From positions 3,815,501 through 3,879,500 of the forward strand of contig NZ_CP106735.1 of the NCBI RefSeq assembly GCF_025639805.1: a DNA stretch of 64,000 nucleotides. The letters are read 5' to 3'. The stretch is from Reichenbachiella carrageenanivorans (GTDB taxonomy: Bacteria; Bacteroidota; Bacteroidia; Cytophagales; Cyclobacteriaceae). The notes beneath the pieces were generated by a model. It had not been told where the DNA came from, did not search any database, and was given only the letters and a program-made list of their open reading frames with translations. This document shows, one piece after another, positions 5,330 through 61,186 of this stretch (positions are counted from its first letter, which is position 1; each line of letters starts with the position of its first letter). A program made the position numbers and the translations under genes.

Positions 5330-6137
5330 AAAAGGTGGTGTACTCCGACGTGCAGGCCATACAGAAGCAGCTATAGATTTAGCACGGCTAGCGGGCATGT
5401 ACCCCGCTGGTGTACTCGTGGAAATCATGAATGAAGACGGTACGATGGCCAGGTTGCCAGAGTTGAAAGTGGTCGCCAAAAAATTCAATTTAAAATTGAT
5501 CTCAATCAAAGACTTGATCGCCTATAGAATGGAAAAAGAGTCTTTGATAGAAAAAGAAATTAAGGTAGACATGCCTACCGAATGGGGCAACTTCAAACTT
5601 ACTGCCTACAAGCAAATAAGTACAGGTGAACATCACCTGGCTTTGGTGAAAGGTGACTGGGATCCAAAAGAACCCGTCATGGTACGCGTACACTCTTCTT
5701 GCTTGACTGGCGACATATTCGGCTCGTGTCGATGCGACTGTGGCGAGCAGCTACACAATGCCATGACGATGGTAGAAAAAGAAGGTAAAGGGGTGATCGT
5801 ATACATGAACCAAGAAGGTCGTGGTATAGGCTTGCTCAACAAACTCAAAGCCTACAAACTACAAGAAGAAGGGCTAGACACTGTAGAAGCCAATGAAAAA
5901 TTGGGGTTCCAAGGTGATCACAGGGACTATGGTGTAGGTGCACAGATACTCCACGACCTAGGTGTAGAAAAAATCAAATTAATCACCAACAACCCTACTA
6001 AAAGAGTGGGGCTCATGGGATATGGCTTGGAAATTGTGGAAAACATTCCGATCGAAGTAGATCCAAATGTTCACAATAAAAAATATCTCGAAACCAAAAG
6101 AGATAAAATGGGTCATAGCATATTAAAGAATGGTTAA
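5319..6137 (+). CDS. ribBA: RibBA, C-terminal fragment (end of DHBP synthase plus GTP cyclohydrolase II)
   Basis: The fragment begins inside the RibB domain ([25 protein letters not shown]...[16 protein letters not shown]) and continues into GTP cyclohydrolase II (RibA). RibA features are the zinc-binding cysteines in [18 protein letters not shown], the NQEGRGIGL motif and [13 protein letters not shown] cyclohydrolase II opens GTP to the first riboflavin intermediate. Joined to the preceding fragment the protein would be about 401 residues, the normal RibBA length. The ATG at 5319 is an internal codon and probably not a true start. The stop overlaps the next gene by 8 bases, suggesting translational coupling. 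Confidence 0.85.
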
Positions 6138-15705: not shown

Positions 15706-16380
15706 TCAATCTGTTTTCTGAAAACTAAATAGCGAGTGATCGGCCTCCGACTTCAACACCAACTGCCCCTCTTCCAAAGCATAGCTTTTAACCTGAGACA
15801 TAAGTGCATGAAAGCGATTAGACAAAGACATATCAACGCACATTTTCCGGGTATTTGCTATTTGTCCAAAAACAAGTTCTTTTTCACCTACTGACTCAAT
15901 GGAGCCCGTATAACTATTGCATCCATCAAAACCCATGATCTTATTTTCGTATAGGTTAATTTCTAATCGAGGTCGCTGTTGCTCTTCAACATCCAATACC
16001 ATCTCCCCCATTTCTTCCAACACCCATAAGTCATGTAATCTAACTTTTGGGTCAAATTCCTTACTTAGGACTTCGACCAATTGATAACGAATTGATGACC
16101 CATCAGCAGGCGGATTCTCAATAGATTTTTCTGACACTGCTAATTGATAGATAAAACCCTCTTTAAAATCAAAACCTTCAATAGTGCTATAAAAATACTC
16201 CCACGCACCAGACTCTACTTGCTCTCCTTGCTGTACCTGAAGACATCGTCTGGGACCTTCTCCTACGCATGCTACGCGCATACTATTTACCCAATACTCT
16301 TTAACTTCTACCTTATCCGAACACGAACAAAGCATGGTTGCTGACAAAAGACATAAAAACCCAATTTGATAATATTTCAT
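15706..16380 (-). CDS. DUF4377 + META-domain lipoprotein
   Basis: From the ATG at 16380 the protein is 224 residues with a lipoprotein signal (YYQIGFLCLLSATMLCSC). Residues about 28-110 match DUF4377 (VACVGEGPRRCLQVQ, then WEYFYSTIEGFDFKEGFIYQ), and the C-terminal part is a META/HslJ-like domain (FDGCNSYTGS, then IANTRKMC). Such lipoproteins are linked to envelope stress or heat tolerance in some bacteria. It is the last gene of the bat operon direction, about 50 bases after BatD. ATG at 16404 is an alternative start. Function unproven. Confidence 0.8.
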   Translation of the reverse strand: MKYYQIGFLCLLSATMLCSCSDKVEVKEYWVNSMRVACVGEGPRRCLQVQQGEQVESGAWEYFYSTIEGFDFKEGFIYQLAVSEKSIENPPADGSSIRYQLVEVLSKEFDPKVRLHDLWVLEEMGEMVLDVEEQQRPRLEINLYENKIMGFDGCNSYTGSIESVGEKELVFGQIANTRKMCVDMSLSNRFHALMSQVKSYALEEGQLVLKSEADHSLFSFQKTD

Positions 16381-48080: not shown

Positions 48081-48707
48081 GATAAATTCAAAATTAGAAA
48101 TTCAAAGTTAATAATTGGCTATGCACGTTTTTCCAACAGGATAACATGCCCTACATGATATGTTTTTTTAAGACAAAAATGCCTTTTTAGCTTAACTAAG
48201 TGCGTTTTTAGTTGCTGTCATTTTTCTTGAACAAAGAACAAACAAAAGTATGTCGGTTTATCATTTTTTTCTCACCTCAGATAAAAAAAGATGAGAAATG
48301 CTTCCAATATCTTAAAAAGATAAAAAATGGAAAAGAAAAGGTGTTTCATTCACTTAGTATATGGGAGGATATATAACACAAATTTTGGTAAGCCCTCTTT
48401 GGAGGCACACACTGTAGTGACAAAAACCACTGTACATCTAACTAGTAAGAATGTGCAGCAGTATGATGTAATCGTGCTACTGCTATTTCTAAATACCCTA
48501 CATATGGAAGGTTTAGAAAAACTTCTTGAGTATAAAGACCAACATGTGATTTCAATATTCACTGATATGTTTGTGTAACTAAGAATGCTTTTGGAAGAAA
48601 TCGTAACAAAAGACCTGATTCACTACTTATCTCTTTAGAGGGAAAACCTCTCCATTTTGCCACTTACCCATCGTTTTAATCGAATCATAAAATTTACTTT
48701 TATTTCT
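48081..48707. other. Long intergenic region before the metal-uptake operon
   Basis: This A/T-rich stretch of about 630 bases separates the glycosyltransferase group from the operon at 48775. Apart from one uncertain small frame (48327-48578) no gene, RNA or repeat is recognised. ATCTTAAAAAGAT (about 48310) is a short palindrome just before that frame, and AGAGG-GAAAA-CCTCT (about 48636) is a weak hairpin after it. Confidence 0.45.
48327..48578 (+). CDS. Uncertain small protein
   Basis: This is an 83-codon frame beginning MEKKRCFIHLVYGRIYNTNF. A middle part (QQYDVIVLLLFLNTLHMEGL, then EKLLEYKDQHVISIFTD) loosely recalls a response-regulator receiver core, but the conserved Asp-Asp and Lys pattern is not there. 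It could be a relic or chance. It stands isolated with a 194-base gap to the next gene. Confidence 0.25.
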   Translation: MEKKRCFIHLVYGRIYNTNFGKPSLEAHTVVTKTTVHLTSKNVQQYDVIVLLLFLNTLHMEGLEKLLEYKDQHVISIFTDMFV

Positions 48708-48711
48708 TAAA

Positions 48712-48726
48712 TGCAATAAGATTGCA
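48712..48726. promoter_or_regulatory. Operator copy 1 (palindrome over the -33 element)
   Basis: TGCAATAAGATTGCA is a 15-bp inverted repeat (TGCAAT / ATTGCA). The TTG of the downstream promoter (48722-48724) lies inside it. It is centred 36 bases before a second palindrome with the same outer half-sites and is repeated in front of the MerC gene at 59.5 kb. Confidence 0.7.
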
Positions 48727-48749
48727 TTTGAAGCGAATCACTATATTTG
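48722..48749 (+). promoter_or_regulatory. Promoter of the TonB-receptor operon
   Basis: TTG (48722-48724), 17 bases, then TATATTTG (48742-48749) matches the Bacteroidota TTG-N17-TAnnTTTG consensus. The -33 element lies inside operator copy 1 and the last two bases of the -7 element lie in operator copy 2. Confidence 0.7.
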
Positions 48750-48762
48750 CAACAATATTGCA
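48748..48762. promoter_or_regulatory. Operator copy 2 (palindrome over the -7 element)
   Basis: TGCAACAATATTGCA is a 15-bp near-perfect palindrome. It covers the end of the -7 element and the presumed transcription start, 12 bases before the ATG at 48775. A dimeric repressor bound here would block RNA polymerase. Confidence 0.7.
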
Positions 48763-48774
48763 TTTTAAAAGAGT

Positions 48775-51111
48775 ATGATCTATCGCCTTTATATATTAAT
48801 TCCCCTCACCCTTCTTCAAAGCCTTTGTTTTGGACAGGGGACGAACATATCTGGTGTAGTGACAGACCCTAATGGTGAAAAGCTTCCAGGAGTCACTGTA
48901 CAACTCATTGATTTAAATCATGGGACTGTAACCAATAACGTAGGTCGCTTTGCTTTTCAAAACCTTGAAACAGGTGATTACACAATCACAGCCTCATTTA
49001 TCGGCTTTCAGGATTACCAGCAGGGTTTTACTATCAAGGATAACAAACCCATAAGCATCAATATCACATTGAAAGAAGCAGTAACACAATTGAATGAAGT
49101 TACTGTCATGGCAAAATCAGAAAGTCAAGAGCTGCATGAAAGTGTGGCAAGTGTCGCTGTACTTGAAACAAAAAAACTGTATGCCCAAAGCAACAACACC
49201 AGCGATGTGATCAAGCAGATTTCGGGGGTGAATGTGAGACAAACGGGAGGGTTTGGTAGTAGTGCTGATGTTTACATCAACGGCATGTCCGGCAAGCAGG
49301 TAAAGTTCTTTCTCGATGGAATTCCACTTTCTTACTTTGGTTCAGGACTGGGGCTTAATGTTTTACCCGTCAACCTGATGGAACAAATCGAAGTGTACAA
49401 AGGCGTAGTACCAGTTGATCTGGGAGCTGATGCATTAGGGGGAGCAATTAACATCAAATCGAGAAAGGAATATATCAATTACTTGGATGCATCCTATTCC
49501 CTTGGTTCTTTCAATACACATAAGGTCAACTTTAATGGCCAATACGTAAACACAGAAAATCATTTAATCGCAGGAGTCAATTCGTTCTACAATCATTCAG
49601 ATAATAATTATAAAGTTGACATAGAGATTCCTGATCAGTATGGTAACCCTGTACCAGCTACCGTCAGACGGTTTCATGATCAGTTTACCAACTACTTAGT
49701 CAACGCATATGCTGGAGTTTATGATAAAAAATATGCTGATCGGCTAGTTTTTAGTGCCAGATATTCAGGACTTGATGATGACATTCAGCACAATGCTGTG
49801 ATGGCACAACCCTACGGCCAGGTTGCTTATGACGAATCTACATTGGGCTTTTCTGCCAATTATGAAAAGGAAGAGATATTGCCACGTACAGCGCTCAAGT
49901 GGTACGGGGGAGTAAATATGACTAGCGGGAACTTTGTGGACACCACATTGAATGCCTATACATGGGATGGCGAGGTATATGACAGACGAACGGATGGAGG
50001 GGAGATTTCCACATCGCGCAACCTCTTGAGTCTCCATTCTAGGAATGCTGTAAGCAGGCTCAATCTTCACCACAATCCTTGGGAAAAGGGACAGTTCACT
50101 CTTAATGTTTTTTCCTCGCGGTTCAATAGATATGGGAAAGATCCGATAGCCGCCGAATTTTATGGAGAGGACTTTTATGCCAACCCCACAACTTTGATTA
50201 AAAATGCCACAGGTCTGGCATACGAACATGCTTTCTCCACTGCATTGGTAAGTTACACGGGCGTCAAGCATTTCTATATGATGGCAGATGGGTATGCCAT
50301 TCAAAACATGGAATTTCAGCCTAATAAGCAAACAGTCTCCAATTTTGGGGTTTCCCAATCGTTGCGTTATCGATTTTTTAGAGATTTTCTAGCCAAAGCC
50401 TCCTACGAATATGCCACTCGCTTGCCTGACGAGACAGAGTTGTTTGGTGATTTTACCCTCGTGCGTCCCAATCCGTTTTTGAACCCTGAGCAAAGCCACA
50501 ATGCCAATTTGGGCTTTCAATTCAACACCCAAAAGTTAAAAGTGGAATTGAATACATTCTACAGATTGACTGACAACATCATCTGGTTACGGACTTCTCA
50601 GTTTTTCGCACAATATCAAAACCTATTAAAGGCACTTGTCAAAGGGTTGGATGTTGAGTTTCAATACCAACCATTTGATTTTATCAGACTAAAGGCAAAC
50701 GCTACCTATCAGGACATCCGAAACAGATCATCGAGAAGTGTGACTGGTTCGGTAGATAATCGCTACTATGACGCCAGACTACCAAACATTCCCTATCTGT
50801 TTGGCAATGGAGAAGTCCGATATCAAAAGTCCGATTTTCTTGGGACAAATAGCCGATTCTCTGCGTGGTGGTCTGCTAGCTATGTACATGAGTTCTATCT
50901 CTATTGGGCAGTAGATGGAAATAAAGATTTAAAAAACACCATACCGAGTCAATTCATTCAAAACATTGGGGTCTCATACGCTCTTCCAGCTGACCGCTTC
51001 TCCGTCAGCCTCGAATCCACAAATCTTTTTGACCAGAAAGCATTTGACAACTTCAGTGTGCAGCGTCCAGGCAGGGCTTTGTATGTCACTCTTAGAACTT
51101 ATTTACACTAA
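48775..51111 (+). CDS. TonB-dependent outer-membrane receptor
   Basis: The 778-residue protein has a signal peptide (ends CFGQG), a carboxypeptidase-like regulatory domain (about 24-105, ISGVVTDPNGEKLPGVTVQL), a plug domain (about 115-225, SGVNVRQTGGFGSSADVYIN, ending DLGADALGGAINIKSR) and a barrel ending TLRTYLH. It imports a bulky ligand using TonB energy. It is not SusC-type and has no SusD partner; the neighbour is a DUF4374 lipoprotein, and the genes downstream handle metal. With the two palindromic operators this suggests a metal or metallophore receptor, most likely for zinc (inference). Confidence 0.9.
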   Translation: MIYRLYILIPLTLLQSLCFGQGTNISGVVTDPNGEKLPGVTVQLIDLNHGTVTNNVGRFAFQNLETGDYTITASFIGFQDYQQGFTIKDNKPISINITLKEAVTQLNEVTVMAKSESQELHESVASVAVLETKKLYAQSNNTSDVIKQISGVNVRQTGGFGSSADVYINGMSGKQVKFFLDGIPLSYFGSGLGLNVLPVNLMEQIEVYKGVVPVDLGADALGGAINIKSRKEYINYLDASYSLGSFNTHKVNFNGQYVNTENHLIAGVNSFYNHSDNNYKVDIEIPDQYGNPVPATVRRFHDQFTNYLVNAYAGVYDKKYADRLVFSARYSGLDDDIQHNAVMAQPYGQVAYDESTLGFSANYEKEEILPRTALKWYGGVNMTSGNFVDTTLNAYTWDGEVYDRRTDGGEISTSRNLLSLHSRNAVSRLNLHHNPWEKGQFTLNVFSSRFNRYGKDPIAAEFYGEDFYANPTTLIKNATGLAYEHAFSTALVSYTGVKHFYMMADGYAIQNMEFQPNKQTVSNFGVSQSLRYRFFRDFLAKASYEYATRLPDETELFGDFTLVRPNPFLNPEQSHNANLGFQFNTQKLKVELNTFYRLTDNIIWLRTSQFFAQYQNLLKALVKGLDVEFQYQPFDFIRLKANATYQDIRNRSSRSVTGSVDNRYYDARLPNIPYLFGNGEVRYQKSDFLGTNSRFSAWWSASYVHEFYLYWAVDGNKDLKNTIPSQFIQNIGVSYALPADRFSVSLESTNLFDQKAFDNFSVQRPGRALYVTLRTYLH

Positions 51112-51122
51112 AATTAGAATTA

Positions 51123-52331
51123 ATGAAAAAGCAATTACTCAATCAAAAAGGTATATTGGCTATAGCCTTATTATCTGTATGGTCATTCATTGGATGTGAA
51201 AATGATGATCCCGAACCAAATACCAAACCAAGCGTGGAAGTTGATTTTGCCATTTCCACGGTAAGTGGGGCATGGCCTGATCAAACTACTTATATACAGG
51301 GTGTTGAATCTTTGGATTTTACCAGCCTGGGGAATAATAATGCCATAGAACTTACAGGGAGTGCTCGTACAGTTTCTTACAAAGGCAGTGTGTATGCACC
51401 CCCGTCAGGCGCACCTGCTAACCTGATAAAATACACTATAAATACGGATGGAATTCCTGAAGAAGAAGAACGAATTGTAGTACCTGGGGCGAATACTTTT
51501 TCCACGCTCTATTTCGAAAGTGAAACCGTAACATACGGTACGGTGGCTGGAGGAACATCAAAACTTATCGTATTCGATCCCTCTACGATGCGGATTACAG
51601 ATGAGATTTCCCTAACGGCTATAACTCAAAAATTTCCAGAAGCCACTCGCACCTATTATCTCGACATGATAGAAAGAGATGGTAAGCTTTTTATGGGCAT
51701 TCATTACGAAAATAATTTTGCGCCAGTCAACGACAATGCCTATGTAGCGGTCATTGATTTAAGCACCAATACAGTAGAAAAAGTAATATCAGACACCCGA
51801 ACTGGTATGTTTTTCGGTGGACAAGCACCCAACTCAGGAATGATATTGGACGCTAATGGGGACATATATGTTCAGACACTGGGTACCACAAATGCTGGAG
51901 GAGCAGCTCCCAGCGGGGTATTACGTATCAAAAGTGGTGAAACAGATTTTGATCCAGATTATTTCTTTGATCTCGAAGAGGCAGTAGGCAATATCTGCTA
52001 TGGCATCTATCATACTTCATGCGGACGTACTTTCACCGCCAATGTTCAGGACGAAACAGATTTTTGGGAATATGCCACGGGCGAGCCCCAATTTAAGTAT
52101 GTAGAAATTGACCTTGAAGCTACAGAAAGCCTTGGCAATGTTCCAGGGTTACCTACTACCTATGGTTCAAGAACAATGATCGTTCATGAATTGGAAGATC
52201 AGAAACTGCTATTCACTATTGCCACAAATGATGAAAATGCGGTGTACGAATTTGACACGAACACCAATACCAGTAGCAAGCTTTTTGTATCCACAGGTGG
52301 TTATATCTCAGGTCTGGAAAAACTAAATTAA
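51123..52331 (+). CDS. DUF4374-like beta-propeller lipoprotein
   Basis: The 402-residue lipoprotein has the signal LLSVWSFIGCEND. The repeated strand pattern (KLIVFDPSTMRITDEISLT, AYVAVIDLSTNTVEKVISDT, GMILDANGDIYVQTLGTT, VYEFDTNTNTSSKLFV) is that of a seven-bladed propeller of the DUF4374 type. Such proteins accompany TonB-dependent receptors for siderophores or haem in Bacteroidota and may bind ligand at the surface. The gene follows the receptor by 11 bases and precedes the ABC genes by 2 bases, so it is part of one operon. Confidence 0.8.
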   Translation: MKKQLLNQKGILAIALLSVWSFIGCENDDPEPNTKPSVEVDFAISTVSGAWPDQTTYIQGVESLDFTSLGNNNAIELTGSARTVSYKGSVYAPPSGAPANLIKYTINTDGIPEEEERIVVPGANTFSTLYFESETVTYGTVAGGTSKLIVFDPSTMRITDEISLTAITQKFPEATRTYYLDMIERDGKLFMGIHYENNFAPVNDNAYVAVIDLSTNTVEKVISDTRTGMFFGGQAPNSGMILDANGDIYVQTLGTTNAGGAAPSGVLRIKSGETDFDPDYFFDLEEAVGNICYGIYHTSCGRTFTANVQDETDFWEYATGEPQFKYVEIDLEATESLGNVPGLPTTYGSRTMIVHELEDQKLLFTIATNDENAVYEFDTNTNTSSKLFVSTGGYISGLEKLN

Positions 52332-52333
52332 TT

Positions 52334-53035
52334 ATGCTACAAGCCACAGAACTCACGAAAAAGTACGGAAAATTCACAGCGCTGAATGCCCTCAATCTTT
52401 CGGTAAAAAAGGGCGATATATTTTGCCTGCTTGGGGCTAATGGGGCAGGGAAATCTACCACGATTAACCTGTTTCTTAACTTCATTGAGCCTACGGGGGG
52501 TAAAGCCACCATCAACGCACTGGACGTGACGCAGCACGGGAAAGCAACCAAAAAGCTGCTGTCCTACATCCCCGAAAATCTGATGCTATATCCTAACCTA
52601 ACGGGGCTGGAAAATTTGGATTTTTTCTGTGGCTTGGGAGGCAAGAGTTATAGCAAGGATCATTTGGAAGAACTGCTCAAGCAATCAGGTTTGCAGACCA
52701 ACTTCCTGCACAAGCGTGTGAGCAATTACTCCAAAGGCATGCGCCAAAAAGTGGGAATTGCTTTGGCACGAGCTCGTGAAGCCAGTGTACTACTACTGGA
52801 TGAGCCAACATCAGGACTTGATCCAAAAGCCAGCAACGAGTTTTCCGAACTTTTACTAGATATGAAGGACAAAGGAGTGGCCACATTGATGGCCACTCAT
52901 GACCTTTTCCGTGCCAAAGATACGGGTACGCATATCGGGATTATGAAAGAAGGCGTGCTGATCGAGCAGTTTGCTTCTGATGAAGTGAGTTTTCAGGATT
53001 TGGAAAAACTCTACCTCAAGCACATGCACAATTAA
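52334..53035 (+). CDS. ABC transporter ATP-binding protein
   Basis: The 233-residue protein has Walker A GANGAGKST (34-42), the Q-loop, the signature YSKGMRQKV (about 133), Walker B LLLDEPTSGLDP and the H-loop ATHD. It is the ATPase of the ABC-2-type transporter formed with the next two genes. ABC-2 systems usually export or extract; here the operon context is metal uptake, so the direction is open. Confidence 0.95.
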   Translation: MLQATELTKKYGKFTALNALNLSVKKGDIFCLLGANGAGKSTTINLFLNFIEPTGGKATINALDVTQHGKATKKLLSYIPENLMLYPNLTGLENLDFFCGLGGKSYSKDHLEELLKQSGLQTNFLHKRVSNYSKGMRQKVGIALARAREASVLLLDEPTSGLDPKASNEFSELLLDMKDKGVATLMATHDLFRAKDTGTHIGIMKEGVLIEQFASDEVSFQDLEKLYLKHMHN

Positions 53036-53042
53036 GTAGTTT

Positions 53043-54479
53043 ATGAATCAGCTAATTTTTATAGCCAAAAAGGAAATCAAGGTGGCCATTCGTGAAAGGC
53101 TCGTTATTTCTCTAGGAGCAATTATTATTTTGTTGTTGGGAGTAGCCTTGTATGCTGGATATATTTCCTATCGTCAGCAGCAGCAAATCATCACCCAAAC
53201 CCAGATTGAAAAGCGACAAGAGTGGTTGAATCAAGGTGACAAACATCCGCATATTGCTGCACACTACGGCACCTTTGTATTTAAACCCAAAACCATTCTG
53301 AGTCTGTTCGATTTTGGTTTAGATGCTTATACTGGCACCTCGGTCTATTTGGAAGCGCATCATCAGCATGAATTTATGTTTCGTCCAGCCCAAGATCATA
53401 GCAGTATGATCCGTTTTGGCGAACTAAGTGCTGCGTTAGTGTTGCAGGTACTCGTTCCTTTGCTCATTATTTTCTTGGCTTTTGCTTCTTTCACTCGTGA
53501 GCGGGAAAGCGGAACACTCAAACTGCTCATGAGTCAGGGGACATCTTTCAATACATTGACCTGGGGGAAAATACTGGCTTATGCTGTGATGCTGGTAGTG
53601 ATCCTGCTACCATTTTTGCTCGGTTTGGTACTCCTTTCGGTAAGTCACATGAGCTATGATGTCATTCCAGATATAATAGTCAGAGTAGCCATGCTGGTGC
53701 TGATCTATGGTCTGTATTTATGTTTCTTTATCGCTTTTTCTGTGTGGGTGTCTCTACGGTCTGGCTCAGGGAGAAATGCGCTACTTACATTACTTACCTG
53801 TTGGATATTTTTTGCCATTCTCTTGCCCAAAACAGTAGCTAACCTCAGTGAGAGTTTTTATTCGCTACCTTCCATGCGGGAGTTTAAAGCACAGATCGAT
53901 GAAACCAAGCGAAATGGACTGGATGGGAAAACGCCCCGATCTGTTCGTATGGCCAATTTGAAAAAAGAGTATCTGGAAAAATACGGGGTAGATTCGGTGC
54001 AACAGCTGCCATTCAATTTTGAAGGCGTGAGCATGCAGGCAGGGGAAGAATTTGGTGACCAAGTCTATGATTATCACCTAAATAACCTTCGTGAGATTTT
54101 TCATAAGCAAAACCAGTTGGGCAGCATCGCTAGTCTCTTCAATCCCTATCTGGCTGTACAGCACCTTTCCATGGCTCTATCAGGGACAGATACACACACC
54201 TTTATCCACTTTGAAGAAGAGGTAGAGAGATATAGAAGAGAGCTGGTGCGAAAAATGAATCAGGACATGGCCGAAAACTCTAAGTATGGAGAATTCTATG
54301 GCTACAAGGCAGGAAGTGACTTGTGGGGAGAAATCGAAGACTTTTCTTACCGAGTACCTACCGCCTGGCAGCTCCTCAGCTACTACAAATTGGAACTAAT
54401 CTCCCTGATGCTGTGGATGGCGCTTACAATGGTACTCTTACATGTTGCAAACCGAAAAATGAAACCAATCCATGAATAG
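53043..54479 (+). CDS. ABC-2-type permease (DUF3526-like), first
   Basis: The 478-residue protein has six or so membrane helices: one N-terminal (about 19-42), a large extracytoplasmic loop (about 50-130), then a cluster from about 135 (LVLQVLVPLLIIFLAFASFT) to 275, a second loop (about 280-440) and a last helix (about 448-470). ABC-2 elements are EKESGTLKLL-like (TRERESGTLKLLMSQGTSFN). The architecture matches NosY-like/DUF3526 permeases. It overlaps the next gene by 8 bases. Confidence 0.85.
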   Translation: MNQLIFIAKKEIKVAIRERLVISLGAIIILLLGVALYAGYISYRQQQQIITQTQIEKRQEWLNQGDKHPHIAAHYGTFVFKPKTILSLFDFGLDAYTGTSVYLEAHHQHEFMFRPAQDHSSMIRFGELSAALVLQVLVPLLIIFLAFASFTRERESGTLKLLMSQGTSFNTLTWGKILAYAVMLVVILLPFLLGLVLLSVSHMSYDVIPDIIVRVAMLVLIYGLYLCFFIAFSVWVSLRSGSGRNALLTLLTCWIFFAILLPKTVANLSESFYSLPSMREFKAQIDETKRNGLDGKTPRSVRMANLKKEYLEKYGVDSVQQLPFNFEGVSMQAGEEFGDQVYDYHLNNLREIFHKQNQLGSIASLFNPYLAVQHLSMALSGTDTHTFIHFEEEVERYRRELVRKMNQDMAENSKYGEFYGYKAGSDLWGEIEDFSYRVPTAWQLLSYYKLELISLMLWMALTMVLLHVANRKMKPIHE

Positions 54480-55911
54480 ACAGATTCAAACATTGATCCG
54501 CTACGAGTGGAAAACTTTTGTTCGCAACAAGTTTCAGCTGCTCCTGCTCGTCATTACCTTTCTTTTTGGTCTGTACGCTATATACTACGGACAGTCAGAA
54601 ATTAATGCACAGCGGGAAACGATCAACGCAGTAACTGCTCTAGAGACAAAAGAGTTTTCTCAATACAAAGGCAGTTTTACTACAGAAATGGAAAACCAGA
54701 CGCAGGAGCAAACACAGGATATAGCTTCCCGTCCAGAGTATGCCTGGTATCGCCATGGTTATCATGCTATTTTACCTCCACACGATTATGCTCCACTGGC
54801 GATCGGCCAGCGTGATCTGTTTCGGTACTACTATCGCCTTACGGGCACGAGCTTGCATTATCAGCTGTTTGAAAATGAACTGGCCAACCCTGTGAACCTC
54901 TTAACGGGCAATTTTGATCTCTCTTTCCTGCTGGTTTATTTGTTTCCGCTGCTGATTATCGCCTTTTGCTATGGTTTGTTTTCTTCTGAAAAGGAAAGCG
55001 GTACGCTTGCACTCTTACAGATACAGGCCGTGAGCATCCGAAAAATCATGCTGGTTCGCATGGCATTTTATTTCGTACTGATCACGGGACTGGCAATATT
55101 CATTTCGCTCATAGGTCTATGTTCATCAGGCAATCCTTTCACAGAGGAAAACATGTTGCCTGCCATCGCATGGGTGATAGGGACCACTTTGTATTGTGCC
55201 TTTTGGTTTGGGCTGCTGTTTTTAATCATAAGCTTTAAGAAAGGTTCGGCTTTCAATGCCATTTCCGCTGCTGGTTGCTGGTTGTTATTGCTCATTGTAG
55301 TTCCAGCAGTACTCAATGTGATTGTTACCGTCAAGTATCCTTTGAGCAGTGCAACATTGGCTGGCCTCACTCGCAGAACTGGGCTCGAAAATGAGGATGA
55401 CGAAGAGGAGTCCAAAGAAGTAATTATGGAATTCCTTGCTCACAAGCCAGAGCTGGCTGGGAGTGATAGCTTAATGAAAAACAACATGCTCCCAAAAGCT
55501 TATGCGGCTTTTACCACACTAAAAGACATCAACAGCCAACAGGAAGTGGATCACTATAATGACAAGGTGGCGAAAAGGAATCAATGGACATCACAGTTTC
55601 TATGGCTCAGCCCAGCAGTAAACATGCAGGAGATTTTGGCTGAGATAACGCAAACAGACCTCAATACTTTTCTTGATTTTCAGAATGCGTTAGCGGATTT
55701 TCATGGTAAAATCACAGACTTCTACTTCACGCGCCTGTTCTGGGACCGACCAATTTTATTGGAAGATTACGAGCAATTGCCTGTTTTTGAGATGTCCGAA
55801 GATCTAAATCGCGGGAACATCATTTGGTTTGGCTTGGGCAAAATTTTGATAGCGGCAGGGCTGGTGTTTTTAGTAGGCTTTTTCAGAATAAATGGAGGAA
55901 TCAAAAAATGA
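54472..55911 (+). CDS. ABC-2-type permease (DUF3526-like), second
   Basis: The 479-residue protein is a divergent paralogue of the preceding permease with the same layout: N-terminal helix (about 20-38), long outer loop with HGYHAILPPHDYAPLAIGQR, a helix cluster (about 150-280) containing SSEKESGTLALLQIQ, a second loop and a final helix (about 455-475). The His/Tyr/Pro-rich loop is a possible metal or partner site (inference). It overlaps the following COG0523 GTPase by 4 bases (ATGA), so the two are translationally coupled. Confidence 0.85.
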   Translation: MNRQIQTLIRYEWKTFVRNKFQLLLLVITFLFGLYAIYYGQSEINAQRETINAVTALETKEFSQYKGSFTTEMENQTQEQTQDIASRPEYAWYRHGYHAILPPHDYAPLAIGQRDLFRYYYRLTGTSLHYQLFENELANPVNLLTGNFDLSFLLVYLFPLLIIAFCYGLFSSEKESGTLALLQIQAVSIRKIMLVRMAFYFVLITGLAIFISLIGLCSSGNPFTEENMLPAIAWVIGTTLYCAFWFGLLFLIISFKKGSAFNAISAAGCWLLLLIVVPAVLNVIVTVKYPLSSATLAGLTRRTGLENEDDEEESKEVIMEFLAHKPELAGSDSLMKNNMLPKAYAAFTTLKDINSQQEVDHYNDKVAKRNQWTSQFLWLSPAVNMQEILAEITQTDLNTFLDFQNALADFHGKITDFYFTRLFWDRPILLEDYEQLPVFEMSEDLNRGNIIWFGLGKILIAAGLVFLVGFFRINGGIKK

Positions 55912-56888
55912 AAACAAAACCTGTACATATCATTACTAGTTTTCTGGGTGCTGGAAAAACTACCTTTCTAAATCATTTCATCAAAGAGCGCTTGCCCGAA
56001 CGAATCTTTGTTATTGAAAATGAATGCGGAGCTACCAATGTAGATGGTGCCCTGATCATGGATGGTACAGAAGAAATCGTGGAACTCACATCTGGGTGTC
56101 TCTGCTGTTCTCTGGCTGATGGACTACTAGACATACTTCAGGATGTCTATAACCGAAGGGACGAATACGATCGTTTGGTCATCGAAACGACCGGTATTGC
56201 AGACCCAAGTTCTATCGTGCAGGTTTTCTTAGAAAATCCAGCTGTGGAAAAAGCCTTTTCGTTCCAGCAAGTGATCTGCTTGGTGGATGCTGGACTGGTG
56301 GTGGAGTGGTTAGATGAAGCTGAAGAGGCATTGCGCCAAATAGCCATAGCAGATGTGCTACTGGTCAACAAGATTGACCAAATTGCAGAAGGCAAACTTC
56401 ATCAAGTACTAGCAACACTCAACGGAATAAACCCACAAGCCAAGTCATATACTGGTTATGATGGCATTTTCCCCATAGAAGACATTCTTCAAATGGGTAC
56501 AATAAACCCAGAAGCGATAGAAGCGGTTACAAACACTCAAGGACACCATCATTTTCAACATGGTGAAACCAACAATCACAAGATCTCAACTTTTACACTC
56601 GACTTTTCTCACCCGTTGGATCTTAATGAGCTACAGCTGGATCTCAACCGGATCATACATCTGTATCGTCACCAGGTCTATCGTGTCAAAGGGGTCATTG
56701 CTATCCCGCATTACCCCAATCGAGTGATCCTACAATCAGTCAGAAGTACGTTTGTTGCAACAGACGGCACTCCATGGGAAGATGAAAATAACCGCGAAGG
56801 AAGACTTGTTTTCATAGGTAGAGGACTTAAGAAAGAAGCTTTCGAGAAGATGTTTAATCAGCATTTAGTATTTCCTTCTATCTCCTGA
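55908..56888 (+). CDS. COG0523 metallochaperone GTPase (CobW/P47K family), short form
   Basis: From ATG 55908 (preceded by GGAGG) the protein is 326 residues. GTPase motifs are GAGKTT (14-19), ETTGIADP and LVNKIDQI; the family's CxCC metal site is SGCLCC (Cys64, 66, 67). A His-rich insert (about 211-225, GHHHFQHGETNNHK) is typical of zinc-related members, and a C-terminal CobW_C domain follows. These proteins deliver metal, chiefly zinc, to clients under limitation. It is coupled to the ABC-2 permease and is the second half of a pair with the gene at 59987. Confidence 0.92.
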   Translation: MKTKPVHIITSFLGAGKTTFLNHFIKERLPERIFVIENECGATNVDGALIMDGTEEIVELTSGCLCCSLADGLLDILQDVYNRRDEYDRLVIETTGIADPSSIVQVFLENPAVEKAFSFQQVICLVDAGLVVEWLDEAEEALRQIAIADVLLVNKIDQIAEGKLHQVLATLNGINPQAKSYTGYDGIFPIEDILQMGTINPEAIEAVTNTQGHHHFQHGETNNHKISTFTLDFSHPLDLNELQLDLNRIIHLYRHQVYRVKGVIAIPHYPNRVILQSVRSTFVATDGTPWEDENNREGRLVFIGRGLKKEAFEKMFNQHLVFPSIS

Positions 56889-56926
56889 TACACCCCTCAA
56901 TTATTGAAAAAAATATTTAATCTGGC

Positions 56927-59230
56927 ATGAATAAAATGCATCATTTTTTATCCTCAAGAAACTATAGGAGATCAAGAACACCATCGGATGATTCCTATGT
57001 GACAGCAGAGAACTGTTTAAAGATAAGGCGACTTTTTATATCCGTATTTTGTGCTTTGGCGACCTCTGTTTCTGCGCAGGATAATAGCAATCAAAATTTT
57101 CCACCCCCAGAAATACCTACTGAAATCAGAGCTATTCCTACCACAGAGGGTATTAGAATTGATGGGAAATTAATTGAGATCCCTTGGAAAAATGCACCCG
57201 TAACCCATGATTTTTATCGAATAGAGCCTCGTCAGGGTGGCACCTATCGGTATCAGACACAGGTGAGGTTGCTTTATGACGAGAAGAATCTATATGTAGG
57301 TGTTTTTTGTACAGACTCCCTCGGAAAAAAAGGTATTCGGGTGCAAGACTTACGAAGGGATTTTTCTTGGGGAGAAAATGATGCTTTTGGTATTCAGTTG
57401 GATCCGCAAAACCTAACGCAATACTGTGTATCGTTCCAAACTACTCCCTATGGCAATCAGCGGGACATGCAAAACTTCAATGACAACAATACAGATGACA
57501 ATTGGAATGCCCTCTGGACGGTACGGACACATCAGACTGACTCGGGCTACTTTGCAGAGTTTGCCATTCCTTTCAAGTCTATTCGGTACGAGCGACCTGA
57601 AATAGCAGATTCTGTGACCTGGGGTATTACCTTTACACGTCTGGCTCGCAGGGAGTATGAACAAACCGTATTTCCAGCCATTCCTCAGTCTTTTTCTCCC
57701 TATCGGATGACGTATGCCGCTCAACTCAAAGGGCTCACCGTTCCCGAACCGAGTGCCAATGTGAGGATAGAACCCTATTTTCTTTATCAGTATGAGGATA
57801 CTGAAATTAACGGTCAAACTATTTCGGATGATAATGTGAAATTAGGTGGAGATATCAAATGGGCGATCAATCCACGCTCGGTTTTAGATCTTACTTTCAA
57901 TACTGATTTTGCACAAGCTGATGTGGATCAGGCTGTCAATAATCTGGAAAGATTCAACGTCTATTTTCCTGAAAAGAGGCAATTTTTCTTAGAGAACTCA
58001 GGTATCTGGGCTGGGGCGGCTGACCGTTCGGTTATCCCCTTTTTTAGCAGAACCATTGGCTTGCAGGGCAATTTTAATGCAGAACCCGCTCGGATCGATG
58101 GAGGTGCAAGATATACCATGCGAAATGATGACCGATCCACGGCAGGACTGTACATGCACCAAGCTCAAACCGCCAACTCTCCAGCTGCAAGTTTTGCCGT
58201 AGGTCGTTATATTCAAAATTATGGAAAGGAAAATAATGTAGGTATCATGTTCACTCATCGGCTAGATGAGGCTTCCAAAGAACTGGGAGTGACACAAAGC
58301 AACAATACAACCTTGACTGTGGATGGGTTGATCCGTCCCAAAAGCGAACTGACCTTCTCCTACTTATTATCAGGATCACGGGATAATTCCAATGACACCT
58401 TAGGTCTAGCAGGAAAGCTATTTGCGGGCTATAACACCAATAAGTTTTACTTAGGCTGGCTAACTAATTTCGTCACAGAAGATTACAATCCAGATATGGG
58501 GTTTGTCTTTCAGAAAAATGTAATCTGGCATAACCCAGGTGGTTATTTCATCTGGCGGCCAAAAAGTATACCTTGGATCAGGCGTTTTGATCCTGGAGCC
58601 TTTTTCAACTATTATCAGGACGCAAGCGATCCTACTAATTTTCAGCAGGCCAGTATTTACTTGTTTCCTATTTACGTGTACTTCACGGATGGCAGCTTTT
58701 TTGAATATGCCATTTATCCAACCTGGCAAAACATCAATTTCGATTTTGCCCCTTTAGGAATATCCATCGCTCAAGACGAATATTATTATACTCGTCATCA
58801 GATCAACTACAATTCGGATCAATCAAGGAAATTATCAGTATCAGGAAAACTTGGTTGGGGTGGTTTTTATAATGGCAAGCGTTTAACAGCGAATGGAGGG
58901 TTGCGTTATGCGCCTATTCCACATGTGGCATTTACAGCTGATTATGAATACAACAACTTGGATAACTTAGGTGTATTGTTGGAAGATTTGGATACACACT
59001 TGGTCACTTTTGGGGCAAGATTTGCACTTAATCCACGTTTACAACTTTCTGCTTTTTACCAATACAATTCATTTGATGAGCAAGGTCGGTGGAACGTTCG
59101 TGGAAGTTGGGAATACCGCCCTTTGTCTTTTATCTATTTAGTGTTTAATGACACTCAAATCAATGGACTGGAACACCCCCTTGAACAGCAGCAGTTGATT
59201 GGGAAGGTCACTTTTTTGAAGCAGTTCTAA
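56927..59230 (+). CDS. DUF5916 outer-membrane protein with CBM9-like N-domain
   Basis: The 767-residue protein has an N-terminal domain (about 55-230, RIDGKLIEIPWKNAPVTHDF, then DAFGIQLDPQNLTQYCVSFQ) like family 9 carbohydrate-binding modules, and a large barrel (about 270-767) ending GKVTFLKQF, as in DUF5916 proteins. The first 36 residues (RNYRRSRTPSDDSY and so on) precede the real signal peptide (FISVFCALATSVSAQ), so translation may begin at GTG 56999 instead. It lies 38 bases after the GTPase gene and could share its operon. Role in metal uptake is unproven. Confidence 0.82.
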   Translation: MNKMHHFLSSRNYRRSRTPSDDSYVTAENCLKIRRLFISVFCALATSVSAQDNSNQNFPPPEIPTEIRAIPTTEGIRIDGKLIEIPWKNAPVTHDFYRIEPRQGGTYRYQTQVRLLYDEKNLYVGVFCTDSLGKKGIRVQDLRRDFSWGENDAFGIQLDPQNLTQYCVSFQTTPYGNQRDMQNFNDNNTDDNWNALWTVRTHQTDSGYFAEFAIPFKSIRYERPEIADSVTWGITFTRLARREYEQTVFPAIPQSFSPYRMTYAAQLKGLTVPEPSANVRIEPYFLYQYEDTEINGQTISDDNVKLGGDIKWAINPRSVLDLTFNTDFAQADVDQAVNNLERFNVYFPEKRQFFLENSGIWAGAADRSVIPFFSRTIGLQGNFNAEPARIDGGARYTMRNDDRSTAGLYMHQAQTANSPAASFAVGRYIQNYGKENNVGIMFTHRLDEASKELGVTQSNNTTLTVDGLIRPKSELTFSYLLSGSRDNSNDTLGLAGKLFAGYNTNKFYLGWLTNFVTEDYNPDMGFVFQKNVIWHNPGGYFIWRPKSIPWIRRFDPGAFFNYYQDASDPTNFQQASIYLFPIYVYFTDGSFFEYAIYPTWQNINFDFAPLGISIAQDEYYYTRHQINYNSDQSRKLSVSGKLGWGGFYNGKRLTANGGLRYAPIPHVAFTADYEYNNLDNLGVLLEDLDTHLVTFGARFALNPRLQLSAFYQYNSFDEQGRWNVRGSWEYRPLSFIYLVFNDTQINGLEHPLEQQQLIGKVTFLKQF

Positions 59231-59238
59231 CAACTATT

Positions 59239-59418
59239 TTAGGCTTTACATTCCTGCATATACCACTGATTAACTGAGAATTCGTTAGAGACCTCTGGAA
59301 CTTCTATATCTTCAAGGCAATAAGTTTGATGGCACTCATCGCAAACAAAGTGAAGGTAATAATAAGCTTCCTCCTCCTTACTGTACTTGTCCGTAAAACG
59401 TACATCGAAAAGTGTTTC
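59239..59418 (-). pseudogene. C-terminal remnant of a Fur-family (Zur-like) regulator
   Basis: The 59-codon frame reads ETLFDVRFTDKYSKEEEAYY, then YLHFVCDECHQTYCLEDIEV up to a stop after MQECKA. This is the dimerisation half of a Fur-family protein, with the structural CxxC (CDEC) and following CLEDIEVP typical of Bacteroidota Zur/Fur-like proteins. The winged-helix DNA-binding half is gone: an in-frame TAG (59419-59421) stands directly upstream. The last CxxC expected at the end is also shortened. It lies among metal-uptake genes and two operator pairs, so it may be the relic of the local regulator. Confidence 0.65.
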
Positions 59419-59421
59419 CTA

Positions 59422-59490
59422 AGTGATTTTAGTTTGAGCCCAAGCAGACGAACTCAGCATAAAAAATAATATAATCGCAAACCTATTAAA
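59422..59490 (-). pseudogene. Signal-peptide stub upstream of the Fur remnant
   Basis: In the same frame as the Fur piece, 23 codons encode NRFAIILFFMLSSSAWAQ and then TKIT before TAG. This is a textbook signal peptide with the Ala-x-Ala-Gln cleavage end of Bacteroidota, but the expected ATG is TTT and nothing follows it. It looks like the front end of a deleted exported-protein gene joined to the Fur fragment. Confidence 0.45.
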
Positions 59491-59503
59491 CTAAATCAAT
59501 AAA

Positions 59504-59518
59504 TGCAACATTATTGCA
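59504..59518. promoter_or_regulatory. Operator copy 3 (palindrome over the -33 element)
   Basis: TGCAACATTATTGCA is the same 15-bp motif as before the receptor operon. Its TTG (59514-59516) serves as the -33 element of the MerC promoter. Confidence 0.7.
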
Positions 59519-59544
59519 TATGATGGCTTTAAATGTTATACTTG
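59514..59544 (+). promoter_or_regulatory. Promoter of the MerC-COG0523 unit
   Basis: TTG (59514-59516), 20 bases, then TATACTTG (59537-59544), one base off TAnnTTTG. Both elements overlap operators, as at 48.7 kb. Confidence 0.5.
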
Positions 59545-59557
59545 CAATATTATTGCA
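59543..59557. promoter_or_regulatory. Operator copy 4 (perfect palindrome over the -7 element)
   Basis: TGCAATATTATTGCA matches its own reverse complement except at the centre. It begins in the -7 element and ends 14 bases before the MerC start codon, the same spacing class as copy 2. Confidence 0.75.
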
Positions 59558-59571
59558 TTTAAAAAGTATAC

Positions 59572-59973
59572 ATGAAAAATCAATTTATCGGGCTCCATTT
59601 GGATTTTGTCGGTTTCAGTGCTTCGCTACTTTGTTCCTTACATTGTGCAACTCTTCCCTCCTTGCTCAGTCTTACCTCTCTAGCCAGCCTTCAGTTTCTG
59701 AATACATTCTGGATTGAATACTCCATTATCTTAGTGAGTTTTTCCATTGCTTCTTATGCATTAGTGCATGGTTATCGCAAGCATCATCAAAAGCCAACGG
59801 CATTGGTTATTGTTCTATCAGGATTCATTCTAATTATTAGTGGTCACCTATTTCAGGCCGAATGGCACGAAACCGTGCTAACACCTTGTGGGGCGGCAGT
59901 AGTGGCGATTGCTCATTTTGTTAACTGGATCCAGATAAAGCAATCCAGTGTAGAATTCCCTGATTGTCAATAA
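59572..59973 (+). CDS. MerC-domain membrane protein
   Basis: The 133-residue protein has four membrane helices and the MerC-type Cys pair in the first ([13 protein letters not shown]), with a further Cys in TPCGAAVVA and a His-rich loop (HGYRKHHQK). MerC proteins move mercury in Gram-negative operons, but stand-alone members in Bacteroidota often sit with COG0523 genes and metal regulators; zinc or another thiophilic ion is more likely here, as no mer genes are present. It is the first gene of a two-gene unit with the GTPase at 59987 (13-base gap). Confidence 0.85.
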
Positions 59974-59986
59974 AAACTTCATAATA

Positions 59987-61186
59987 ATGTTTGGAACAAA
60001 AAAATTACCCGTGACTGTGCTCAGTGGCTTTCTAGGCGCAGGCAAGACTACCCTGCTCAATCATGTACTACATAATCGTCAAGGATTAAAAGTGGCCGTG
60101 ATCGTCAATGACATGAGCGAAGTAAATGTAGATAGTCAGTTGGTACAAAACGAAATCAAACTATCACGTACCGATGAAAAGCTGGTGGAAATGAGTAACG
60201 GCTGTATCTGTTGCACCCTGCGTGAGGATTTGATGATAGAGGTGGAAAGATTAGCCAAGATGAAAAAATTTGATTACCTGCTTATTGAGAGCACAGGGAT
60301 TTCCGAGCCTATTCCAGTAGCCCAGACCTTTTCTTTTGCTACAGGGGATGAACTTTATGACTTGACCAAATTTAGTCGACTGGACACTATGGTTACCGTA
60401 GTAGATGCTTTCAATTTCTTCAAAGACTTTGGCAGTACCGATACTATTCTGGACAGAAGTATGACAGACGATAGTGAAGACACACGTACCATTGTGAACC
60501 TGCTCACCGATCAAGTAGAGTTTGCCAATATTATACTACTCAACAAAACTGATCTAGTGAGCGAAGCACAATTGGGTTTGCTTGAAGGTACATTTAAAAA
60601 ACTTAACCCTGAAGCACAAATTATCAGAACCTCTTATGGAAAAGTAGATCCAAAAACCATCCTCAACACTAAATTATTTAACTATGACCAAGCAGAACAG
60701 GCTGCTGGATGGATCAAGGAGCTAAATAACGAACATACGCCTGAAACCGAAGAATATGGCATTTCCTCTTTTGTATTTAGAGAACGTAAGCCTTTTCACC
60801 CTAAACGCTTTTGGCATTATGTCAATAATGAATGGCCTAATAGTGTCATTCGCAGTAAAGGTCTCTTTTGGCTTGCTTCCAGACCAGACCAAGCGCTGAT
60901 GTGGAGCCAAGCTGGGGGCTCCCTGAAAGCCGATCCCTACGGAAGGTGGTGGGCTTCAGTCCCCATGAAAGAAAGAGCACAGAATCAAGCATACATGGAA
61001 AACCAACAAGTTATTATGAAAAAATGGGACGAAAAATGGGGTGATCGTATGAATGAGCTTGTGATCATTGGGCAGGATATGGATGAAAAATCCATTACCG
61101 ATGCTTTAAAAAAATGTCTGGCCAATGAATTGGAAGCGACTACTATGGCTTCTGATAGTCCTTTTGAAGATAACTGGCCTATATAA
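59987..61186 (+). CDS. COG0523 metallochaperone GTPase (ZigA/YciC-like), long form
   Basis: The 399-residue protein has GFLGAGKTT (14-22), [10 protein letters not shown], the CxCC site SNGCICC (Cys73, 75, 76), ESTGISEP and LLNKTDLV. Its long C-terminal CobW_C domain ([20 protein letters not shown], then [20 protein letters not shown]) is that of ZigA/YciC-type proteins induced under zinc starvation. It is only distantly similar to the short GTPase at 55908. It ends the zinc-type locus; a stretch without genes follows. Confidence 0.94.

Follow-up and report, generated by a model that had tools for sequence, protein, structure and literature searches.

Gene content of the locus

The stretch of DNA considered here, 64,000 nucleotides from Reichenbachiella carrageenanivorans (contig NZ_CP106735.1, positions 3,815,501 to 3,879,500; hereafter "the window", whose own numbering is used unless another locus or contig is named), carries at 48775-61186 nine protein genes in two units, which combine a TonB-dependent receptor and a DUF4374 lipoprotein with an ABC ATPase, two ABC-2-type permeases and two GTPases of the COG0523 family. 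An earlier reading of these genes, referred to below as the original prediction, proposed a zinc-limitation regulon in which an ABC-2 transporter takes the place of a usual importer, and the gene set that it described is confirmed:

48775-51111, + strand: TonB-dependent receptor (best NCBIfam model MxcH, 552 bits, under the curated cut-off of 925 for this myxochelin receptor)
51123-52331, + strand: DUF4374 lipoprotein, XusB-related (DUF4374 profile against XusB structure 9hqe, E 5e-10)
52334-53035, + strand: ABC ATPase
53043-54479, + strand: ABC-2/DUF3526 permease 1
54472-55911, + strand: ABC-2/DUF3526 permease 2
55908-56888, + strand: COG0523 GTPase a (CLCC, His-rich loop GHHHFQHGETNNH); the true start, 55908, lies within a longer mechanical open reading frame (ORF)
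56927-59230, + strand: DUF5916/CBM9-like protein, found at the equivalent operon position in many relatives
59572-59973, + strand: MerC-family membrane protein
59987-61186, + strand: COG0523 GTPase b (CICC), ZigA-like

Both GTPases contain the CxCC motif attributed to them, but the His-rich loop, which had been attributed to both as well, is present in GTPase a only. GTPase b is covered over almost its full length by the ZigA model (NF038288) and reaches 571.6 bits against a curated cut-off of 600, GTPase a scoring 123.8. Profile scans of the locus revealed neither a PepSY match among the nine proteins nor an ABC-3 permease with a zinc-binding protein of the ZnuABC type. The claim that ZnuABC-type and ZIP genes are missing is thus correct for these 12 kb but not for the genome, which has a tandem ABC-3 pair (C1:3582379-3584459), without a box of the kind described below and adjoining a DtxR/MntR-like gene (named by eye), as well as a ZIP gene (C1:1372476-1373192).

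A peptide cluster in relatives

A scan of genomes with an alignment of 23 permease-1 rows gave 80 loci, the best of 130 candidates, and in 42 of these permease 1 shares 49% identity or more with its counterpart in the window and a DUF4374 gene lies within 9 kb. The intact clusters among them, with Reichenbachiella agariperforans among the carriers, include a short peptide gene, two genes for proteins here termed GRDPx and x306, an operon of the TonB receptor, DUF4374 lipoprotein, ABC ATPase and two DUF3526 permeases, and a MATE gene downstream. GRDPx and x306 precede the operon in 24 of the 42 loci, and in every one of these the peptide gene adjoins GRDPx on its upstream side (in full in 23, truncated where the contig stops in L035, and present twice in L068). 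The MATE gene follows in 23 of the 24, the contig ending too soon in L047, and many of these loci have a methyltransferase gene and a Fur-family gene downstream as well. In the L034 genome the peptide cluster is located on another contig, and further peptide clusters were found in L154 and L158, from genomes beyond the main scan.

The precursor in these loci has 34-36 codons (33 residues in L158), with a conserved leader and a Cys/His core such as THCSNCGHCTSTL, often placed after Gly-Gly. The ratio of non-synonymous to synonymous differences (pN/pS), computed on equal-length pairs with at least eight differences, which leaves out L067, is 0.25 overall in one set (78 pairs, 14 sequences) and 0.24 in another (32 pairs, 9 sequences), falling to 0.17 and 0.12, respectively, in the last 13 codons. 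Since synonymous differences far exceed non-synonymous ones, the ORF is, on this comparison of sequences, a real gene under purifying selection. The relatives thus show what is expected of a metallophore cluster for ribosomally synthesized and post-translationally modified peptides (RiPPs), namely a short precursor, conserved in its leader and core, next to genes dedicated to it; the window has remnants of this arrangement only.

GRDPx (about 159 residues, motif DEMWHNMILFT) and x306 (about 306 residues) show 50-73% identity to their L032 counterparts in alignments and gave no useful family match in Pfam and NCBIfam scans; homologs of GRDPx are listed in the protein database under Pfam PF27765 and are named glycine-rich domain-containing by some sources. 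Database searches gave 340 homologs of GRDPx and 236 of x306. The predicted structure of GRDPx is all-helical (predicted local distance difference test, pLDDT, 93.2) and has no useful structural match, and that of x306 (pLDDT 84.7) consists of Ig-like parts and a C-terminal piece. No DUF692/MNIO match was found among the nine window proteins and ten further proteins, which together with the orthologs of the window proteins cover the L032 cluster from GRDPx to Fur. The metallophore proposed for the relatives is probably ribosomal, modified and zinc-binding.

Some observations on these families concern other hosts. Among the 120 of 236 x306 matches listed, four (P0183, P0184, P0209 and P0224, at 44-50% identity) belong to Flavobacterium (one named F. 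psychrophilum), Desertivirga and Pedobacter. The L158 cluster (G017:C3:128001-148000) combines its divergent 33-residue precursor with a Zur-type box, and the coordinates of its x306 gene equal those of a match on a 295-kb Aureibacter tunicatorum plasmid, which indicates that the peptide cluster can sit on plasmids.

Remnants of a proposed synthesis half in the window

Just upstream of 48708, where the locus was first described to start, the interval 48376-48638 holds what is left of the peptide, GRDPx and x306 genes, and a fourth scar lies between the two units:

48376-48446, + strand: remnant of the precursor-peptide gene, with the leader part TQILVS in one frame and a decayed core, GGTHCSDKNHCTSN, in another
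48504-48578, + strand: GRDPx remnant of 24 codons followed by a stop (50% identity over 40 residues, E 4e-4)
48582-48638, + strand: x306 remnant, the last 18 residues (83% identity over 18)
59239-59418, - strand: Fur scar, in which the start of an ORF like L076:16109-16582 is fused to the C-terminus of the cluster's Fur-family regulator

For the peptide remnant, neither a start region nor any box upstream could be recognised. At the DNA level, window 48377-48582 matches the peptide and GRDPx region of L032 (4067-4297; 71%, E 5e-28), and window 48581-48800 matches L032 from the x306 end to the receptor start (5539-5759; 93%, E 1e-93), so that about 1.24 kb of L032 (4298-5538) is gone between the GRDPx and x306 remnants. 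A genome-wide search for x306 gave no match in the window's genome, and no MATE gene lies between the DUF5916 gene and the Fur scar. The Fur relic noted in the original prediction is real: its part at 59268-59352 is 81% identical to the L032 Fur gene. By these alignments, the window carries a decayed copy of the peptide cluster. From the x306 end to permease 2, identity to L032 amounts to 96% over 7.3 kb with frames open, and therefore the loss of synthesis is recent and the uptake genes look maintained. A second uptake-only locus with x306 remnants is that of Tenacibaculum soleae (L074), T. ovolyticum having the full set; tblastn detected no remnants in the other nine uptake-only loci.

Operator boxes and probable zinc control

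Each unit had been described as beginning with the same pair of operators, and a pair of TGCAAYANNATTGCA sites indeed precedes both, with box starts 36 bp apart in unit 1 and 39 bp apart in unit 2:

48712-48726: Zur-type box 1, unit 1 (TGCAAYANNATTGCA pair)
48748-48762: Zur-type box 2, unit 1 (TGCAAYANNATTGCA pair)
59504-59518: Zur-type box 1, unit 2 (TGCAAYANNATTGCA pair)
59543-59557: Zur-type box 2, unit 2 (TGCAAYANNATTGCA pair)

In the 4.81-Mb genome the exact pattern occurs at five places, namely these four and C1:2506682. The latter belongs to a locus (L026) that contains a Fur-family gene encoding two CxxC motifs, preceded by a one-mismatch box (C1:2503838) about 20 bp before its start, and continues with a TonB receptor, for which ZnuD, a zinc receptor, is the best NCBIfam model (156.9 bits against a cut-off of 950), and with a His-rich DUF4625 lipoprotein behind the fifth exact box. 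The best NCBIfam model of the regulator is Zur (PRK11639), at a score well under the cut-off. Second-strand readings aside, there are four other one-mismatch places, of which C1:1211072 scores 15.3 and the remaining three at most 10.2 on a matrix built from seven sites of this genome, a score of at least 14 being taken as high. With up to two mismatches, 123 forward matches compare with 31 for the reversed pattern. Because exact matches are confined to the window and the locus of a boxed Zur-type gene, the boxes are taken as putative Zur boxes, which they very probably are.

The same boxes recur in the relatives. Boxes with a score of 14 or higher are found within 300 bp of 16 of the 24 peptide genes, as against 0.5% of first-order resampled sequences, and within 300 bp upstream of 15 of the 44 Zur-type Fur genes in the relatives' loci, as against 0.18% of shuffles; there is none before x306 (0/24), permease 2 (0/92) or MATE (0/27). 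The pattern TGCAAYNNNRTTGCA was counted 4, 7 and 7 times in three relatives, whereas its reversed control did not occur. Of nine such places considered outside the peptide cluster, one belongs to a Zur-type gene accompanied by a TonB gene, three to MerC or COG0523 genes or their vicinity, and one to an ABC-2-type ATPase; two more are close to an oxidoreductase of the FAD type (named by eye), which recurs in these clusters, and the last two are at other genes. Zinc control of the locus, as originally proposed, is thus well supported by the box distribution, by the boxed Zur-type gene with its ZnuD-like receptor and, in the three relatives, by boxes close to genes of the Zur type, COG0523 and MerC. 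Zur-regulated GTPases of the COG0523 family are known from the accessible part of PMC2770081, in which no Zur site in Bacteroidota appears; the window likewise has CxCC GTPases behind Zur-type boxes, and GTPase b fits the ZigA model, differing from ZigA proper in its score below the cut-off.

A regulator of the Fur family responding to iron, copper or manganese would offer another account of the boxes. Zur and Fur models give similar scores on these regulators, all below cut-off, and XusB is an iron-siderophore protein. We nevertheless consider a different metal improbable, given that the boxes lie before or at the loci of a ZnuD-like receptor, a His-rich lipoprotein and COG0523, MerC and Zur-type genes, that the other Fur-family protein of the window's genome has its highest score as PerR/Fur and no box at its locus, and that the ABC-3 genes beside the DtxR-like gene are likewise without boxes.

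Co-occurrence of synthesis and uptake genes

Permease 1, the receptor and DUF4374 occur together within 9 kb in 39 loci (L072, in which no permease 1 was called, was left out), and 32 of these have enough flank for comparison, L034, L035, L044, L046, L047, L049 and L054 being dropped. Of the 32, 22 carry the peptide gene together with the MATE gene and 10 carry neither, with no locus having only one of the two (Fisher 1.6e-8, with kinship ignored). In a permease tree of 41 rows (without L033, L037 and L076, and with L034, L035 and L042 counted as synthesis loci) the synthesis label changes at least seven times, five changes being forced by well-supported branches, and in 33 rows all five independent pairs agree on MATE (p 0.0625). 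Furthermore, x306 was found in 5 of 98 genomes, all five with a strong permease-1 match. As the loci were chosen for the permease and receptor genes, the presence of these is by construction; the 10 loci without peptide and MATE genes indicate, however, that ABC-2 and receptor genes can be retained in the absence of synthesis.

These uptake-only loci could also mean that the locus serves the Zur-controlled uptake of other zinc carriers, that is, general scavenging, the peptide of the relatives being an unmodified secreted zinc binder. No known modifying enzyme was recognised in the clusters, as GRDPx and x306 lack a useful family match, but both genes adjoin the peptide gene in intact loci, are conserved there, and have left remnants beside the decayed peptide gene in the window, so that we regard this explanation as unlikely.

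The role of the ABC-2 pair is a separate matter. ABC-2 permeases are mostly exporters, and permease 1 weakly matches GldF (24.2 bits). It is accordingly possible, if on the doubtful side, that the pair exports a zinc-binding molecule or a part of the envelope and that the receptor and lipoprotein alone carry out uptake. A separate MATE gene nevertheless tracks the peptide gene exactly, and the pair occurs in the window and in the 10 loci without peptide and MATE genes in their flanks; peptide export is therefore not its only role, and the pair fits uptake or handling of the product better than peptide export. The proposed use of an ABC-2 transporter in place of a usual importer is supported in part, insofar as the pair, a putative importer, is kept with the receptor where peptide and MATE genes were not found, but not for the genome as a whole, with its ABC-3 and ZIP genes.

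Retention of the pair after the loss of synthesis is also what immunity to a bacteriocin would lead one to expect, and small peptides with Gly-Gly leaders together with ABC-2 pairs are known from bacteriocin systems. Still, there is little chance that the cluster makes a metal-regulated bacteriocin or signal, with the receptor and the ABC-2 pair serving uptake or immunity and not zinc supply, in view of the Cys/His-rich core, the Zur-type boxes, the XusB-type lipoprotein next to a TonB receptor and the COG0523 and MerC companions. In addition, 36 loci that have no DUF4374 gene at all contain a related ABC-2 pair, and in 19 of them a Zur-type gene is situated within 9 kb.

Proposed function and its limits

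The explanation that we favour, and hold to be probable, is that the locus, under the control of Zur, forms the uptake half of a system for a peptide metallophore, the synthesis half of which has decayed in this strain. In relatives with an intact cluster, zinc shortage would lift Zur repression and a precursor of 33-36 residues would be made, its Cys/His core probably being modified by GRDPx and x306; after cleavage behind Gly-Gly or a similar site, the MATE protein would export the product. Once loaded with zinc, the product would be captured by the DUF4374 surface lipoprotein and pass the TonB receptor, the ABC ATPase and the two ABC-2/DUF3526 permeases would handle it at the inner membrane, and the COG0523 GTPases would pass the zinc onward inside the cell. 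Here the ABC-2 pair would replace the reductase of iron systems; because zinc cannot be reduced, an ATP-driven step would be a sensible substitute. The strain of the window would have lost the precursor, GRDPx, x306, MATE and the local regulator, with receptor, lipoprotein and ABC-2 genes intact and the remaining genes probably under the chromosomal Zur. Given that synthesis is lost and the uptake genes are intact, the strain probably takes the metallophore from its neighbours. Import of a metal or metallophore by the receptor, as originally suggested, is thereby supported and made more specific by the Cys/His peptide of the relatives' cluster and the XusB-like DUF4374 protein.

A number of points weigh against this explanation, beginning with the export direction usual for ABC-2 permeases. 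No model names the regulators Zur above its cut-off (38.3 of 167 bits for that of the window's genome), and one local regulator scores slightly higher as Fur. The box at C1:1211072 precedes a glycosyltransferase-like gene, so that the matrix is not fully specific. Moreover, the presence of operators at homologous loci, on which the original prediction had staked its case, gave a divided result: in 18 of the 42 loci no box with a score of 14 or higher is found at a distance of up to 300 bp from the receptor or peptide gene. Of these loci, 14 are from Flavobacteriaceae, L034 is not covered upstream, and in L042 and L076 a box sits immediately after the receptor start as called. As for co-occurrence, kinship inflates the Fisher value, selection by permease and receptor makes synthesis loci without the ABC-2 pair invisible to the table, and absence of the peptide was checked within flanks, and genome-wide (through x306) only in the window's genome. 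Finally, the reading of the x306 C-terminus as a RiPP recognition element (RRE) is weak: aligned from 10 of 12 loci, it has a weak similarity to a PqqD profile (hhalign probability 53.8%, 30 column shuffles at most 8.9%), and Pfam PqqD matches x306 in just 1 of 15 cases (E 0.11).

Comparison with known systems

The closest parallel for uptake is the Xus system of Bacteroides, in which, according to the accessible part of PMC13142918, a DUF4374 lipoprotein binds siderophores and cooperates with a TonB transporter, and the reductase XusC frees the iron. In the window, too, the receptor adjoins a XusB-related DUF4374 lipoprotein, and the proposed uptake of a chelator made by others resembles the xenosiderophore piracy ascribed to XusABC in that part of the source. 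Unlike XusABC, the window has an ABC ATPase with two DUF3526 permeases, Zur-type boxes and no PepSY at the locus, and the peptide is encoded in the cluster of the relatives.

With regard to synthesis, the best-known ribosomal metallophores bind copper. Methanobactin is such a copper metallophore, with a short Cys precursor, a TonB receptor and a MATE exporter in one metal-regulated cluster. The relatives' clusters combine the same three elements but differ in the absence of DUF692/MNIO among the proteins scanned, in their other partner proteins, in their Zur-type boxes and in a MATE protein that is only weakly MbnM-like (24.8 bits vs 285). To our knowledge, the zincophores described so far are opine-like compounds or small molecules of other kinds, those of the pseudopaline type being opine-type. 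As far as the accessible parts of PMC5719457 and PMC7438024 describe it, pseudopaline is a small-molecule zincophore, a zinc-starvation metallophore with export and receptor genes; the cluster of the relatives resembles it in this organisation and differs in encoding a ribosomal peptide.

Searches of the open-licence literature in PubMed Central yielded no description of this gene set, no paper joining DUF4374 with zinc or DUF3526 with TonB, and none on DUF805b (see below) or on Zur, COG0523 and TonB in Bacteroidetes; the assumption that the combination is undescribed is not contradicted there. There is about an even chance that a broader proposal also holds, namely that ribosomal zincophores of a new class (core, e.g., THCSNCGHC) are produced by marine Bacteroidota, with MNIO-free maturation by GRDPx and x306, export by MATE, uptake by an XusB-like lipoprotein, TonB receptor and ABC-2 pair, and Zur control in many lineages, some of which, including that of the window, are uptake-only and live on the peptide of their neighbours. 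If true, a zincophore that is ribosomally made and matured by novel proteins would found a new class of natural products, a function would be suggested for DUF4374-linked ABC-2/DUF3526 pairs, and metallophore scavenging would become testable within one genus, with an intact relative and a strain bearing fresh remnants.

Further features of the clusters

The Rfam RNA DUF805b (RF02914) was found above threshold between the boxes and the peptide start codon in 10 of 14 loci searched, with no match in L038, L051 and L067 and the region not covered in L042; none was found in the window. The matches before the peptide start are:

L032: 3982-4017
L041: 3968-4003
L045: 943-977
L047: 4215-4249
L056: 4023-4059
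L060: 4012-4049
L065: 3821-3857
L066: 3984-4020
L068: 3739-3777 and 3916-3953
L073: 3959-3995

Four of these loci (L065, L066, L068 and L073) are from Flavobacteriaceae that have the peptide gene without Zur-type boxes. In L045 there is another copy (16295-16331) ahead of an unrelated gene for a lipoprotein-like product, for which reason DUF805b may be a general leader element.

GTPase a is part of a 1.2-kb stretch (55915-57092) present in the window and unmatched in L032. It occurs in none of the 24 peptide loci and was seen in L036 and L044, where no peptide was seen, and in L097, which is without the receptor; L076, which is not covered upstream, has an 88-residue piece of it.

A second clade of ABC ATPase with two permeases (permease 1 at 32-36% identity) is divergent from a Zur-type Fur gene in 14 loci (L081, L083-L087, L089, L091, L092, L101, L104, L108, L109 and L111), five with a COG0523 gene nearby and none with a receptor or peptide, and may be read as a wider zinc-linked ABC-2 module. 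Another recurring set, made up of an ABC ATPase, a permease of the FtsX/MacB type and a small protein of one family, is found in L040, L042, L065, L076, L095, L100 and L103, the permease of L076 containing a His-rich stretch.

As to single boxes, the Zur-like site at C1:1211069-1211089 (L028:3570-3590; score 15.3) may be due to chance or mark an additional member of the regulon, and in genome G026 a PepSY-like protein (L178:2243-3015, named by eye), perhaps a XusC-type partner, is encoded downstream of an exact Zur-type box.

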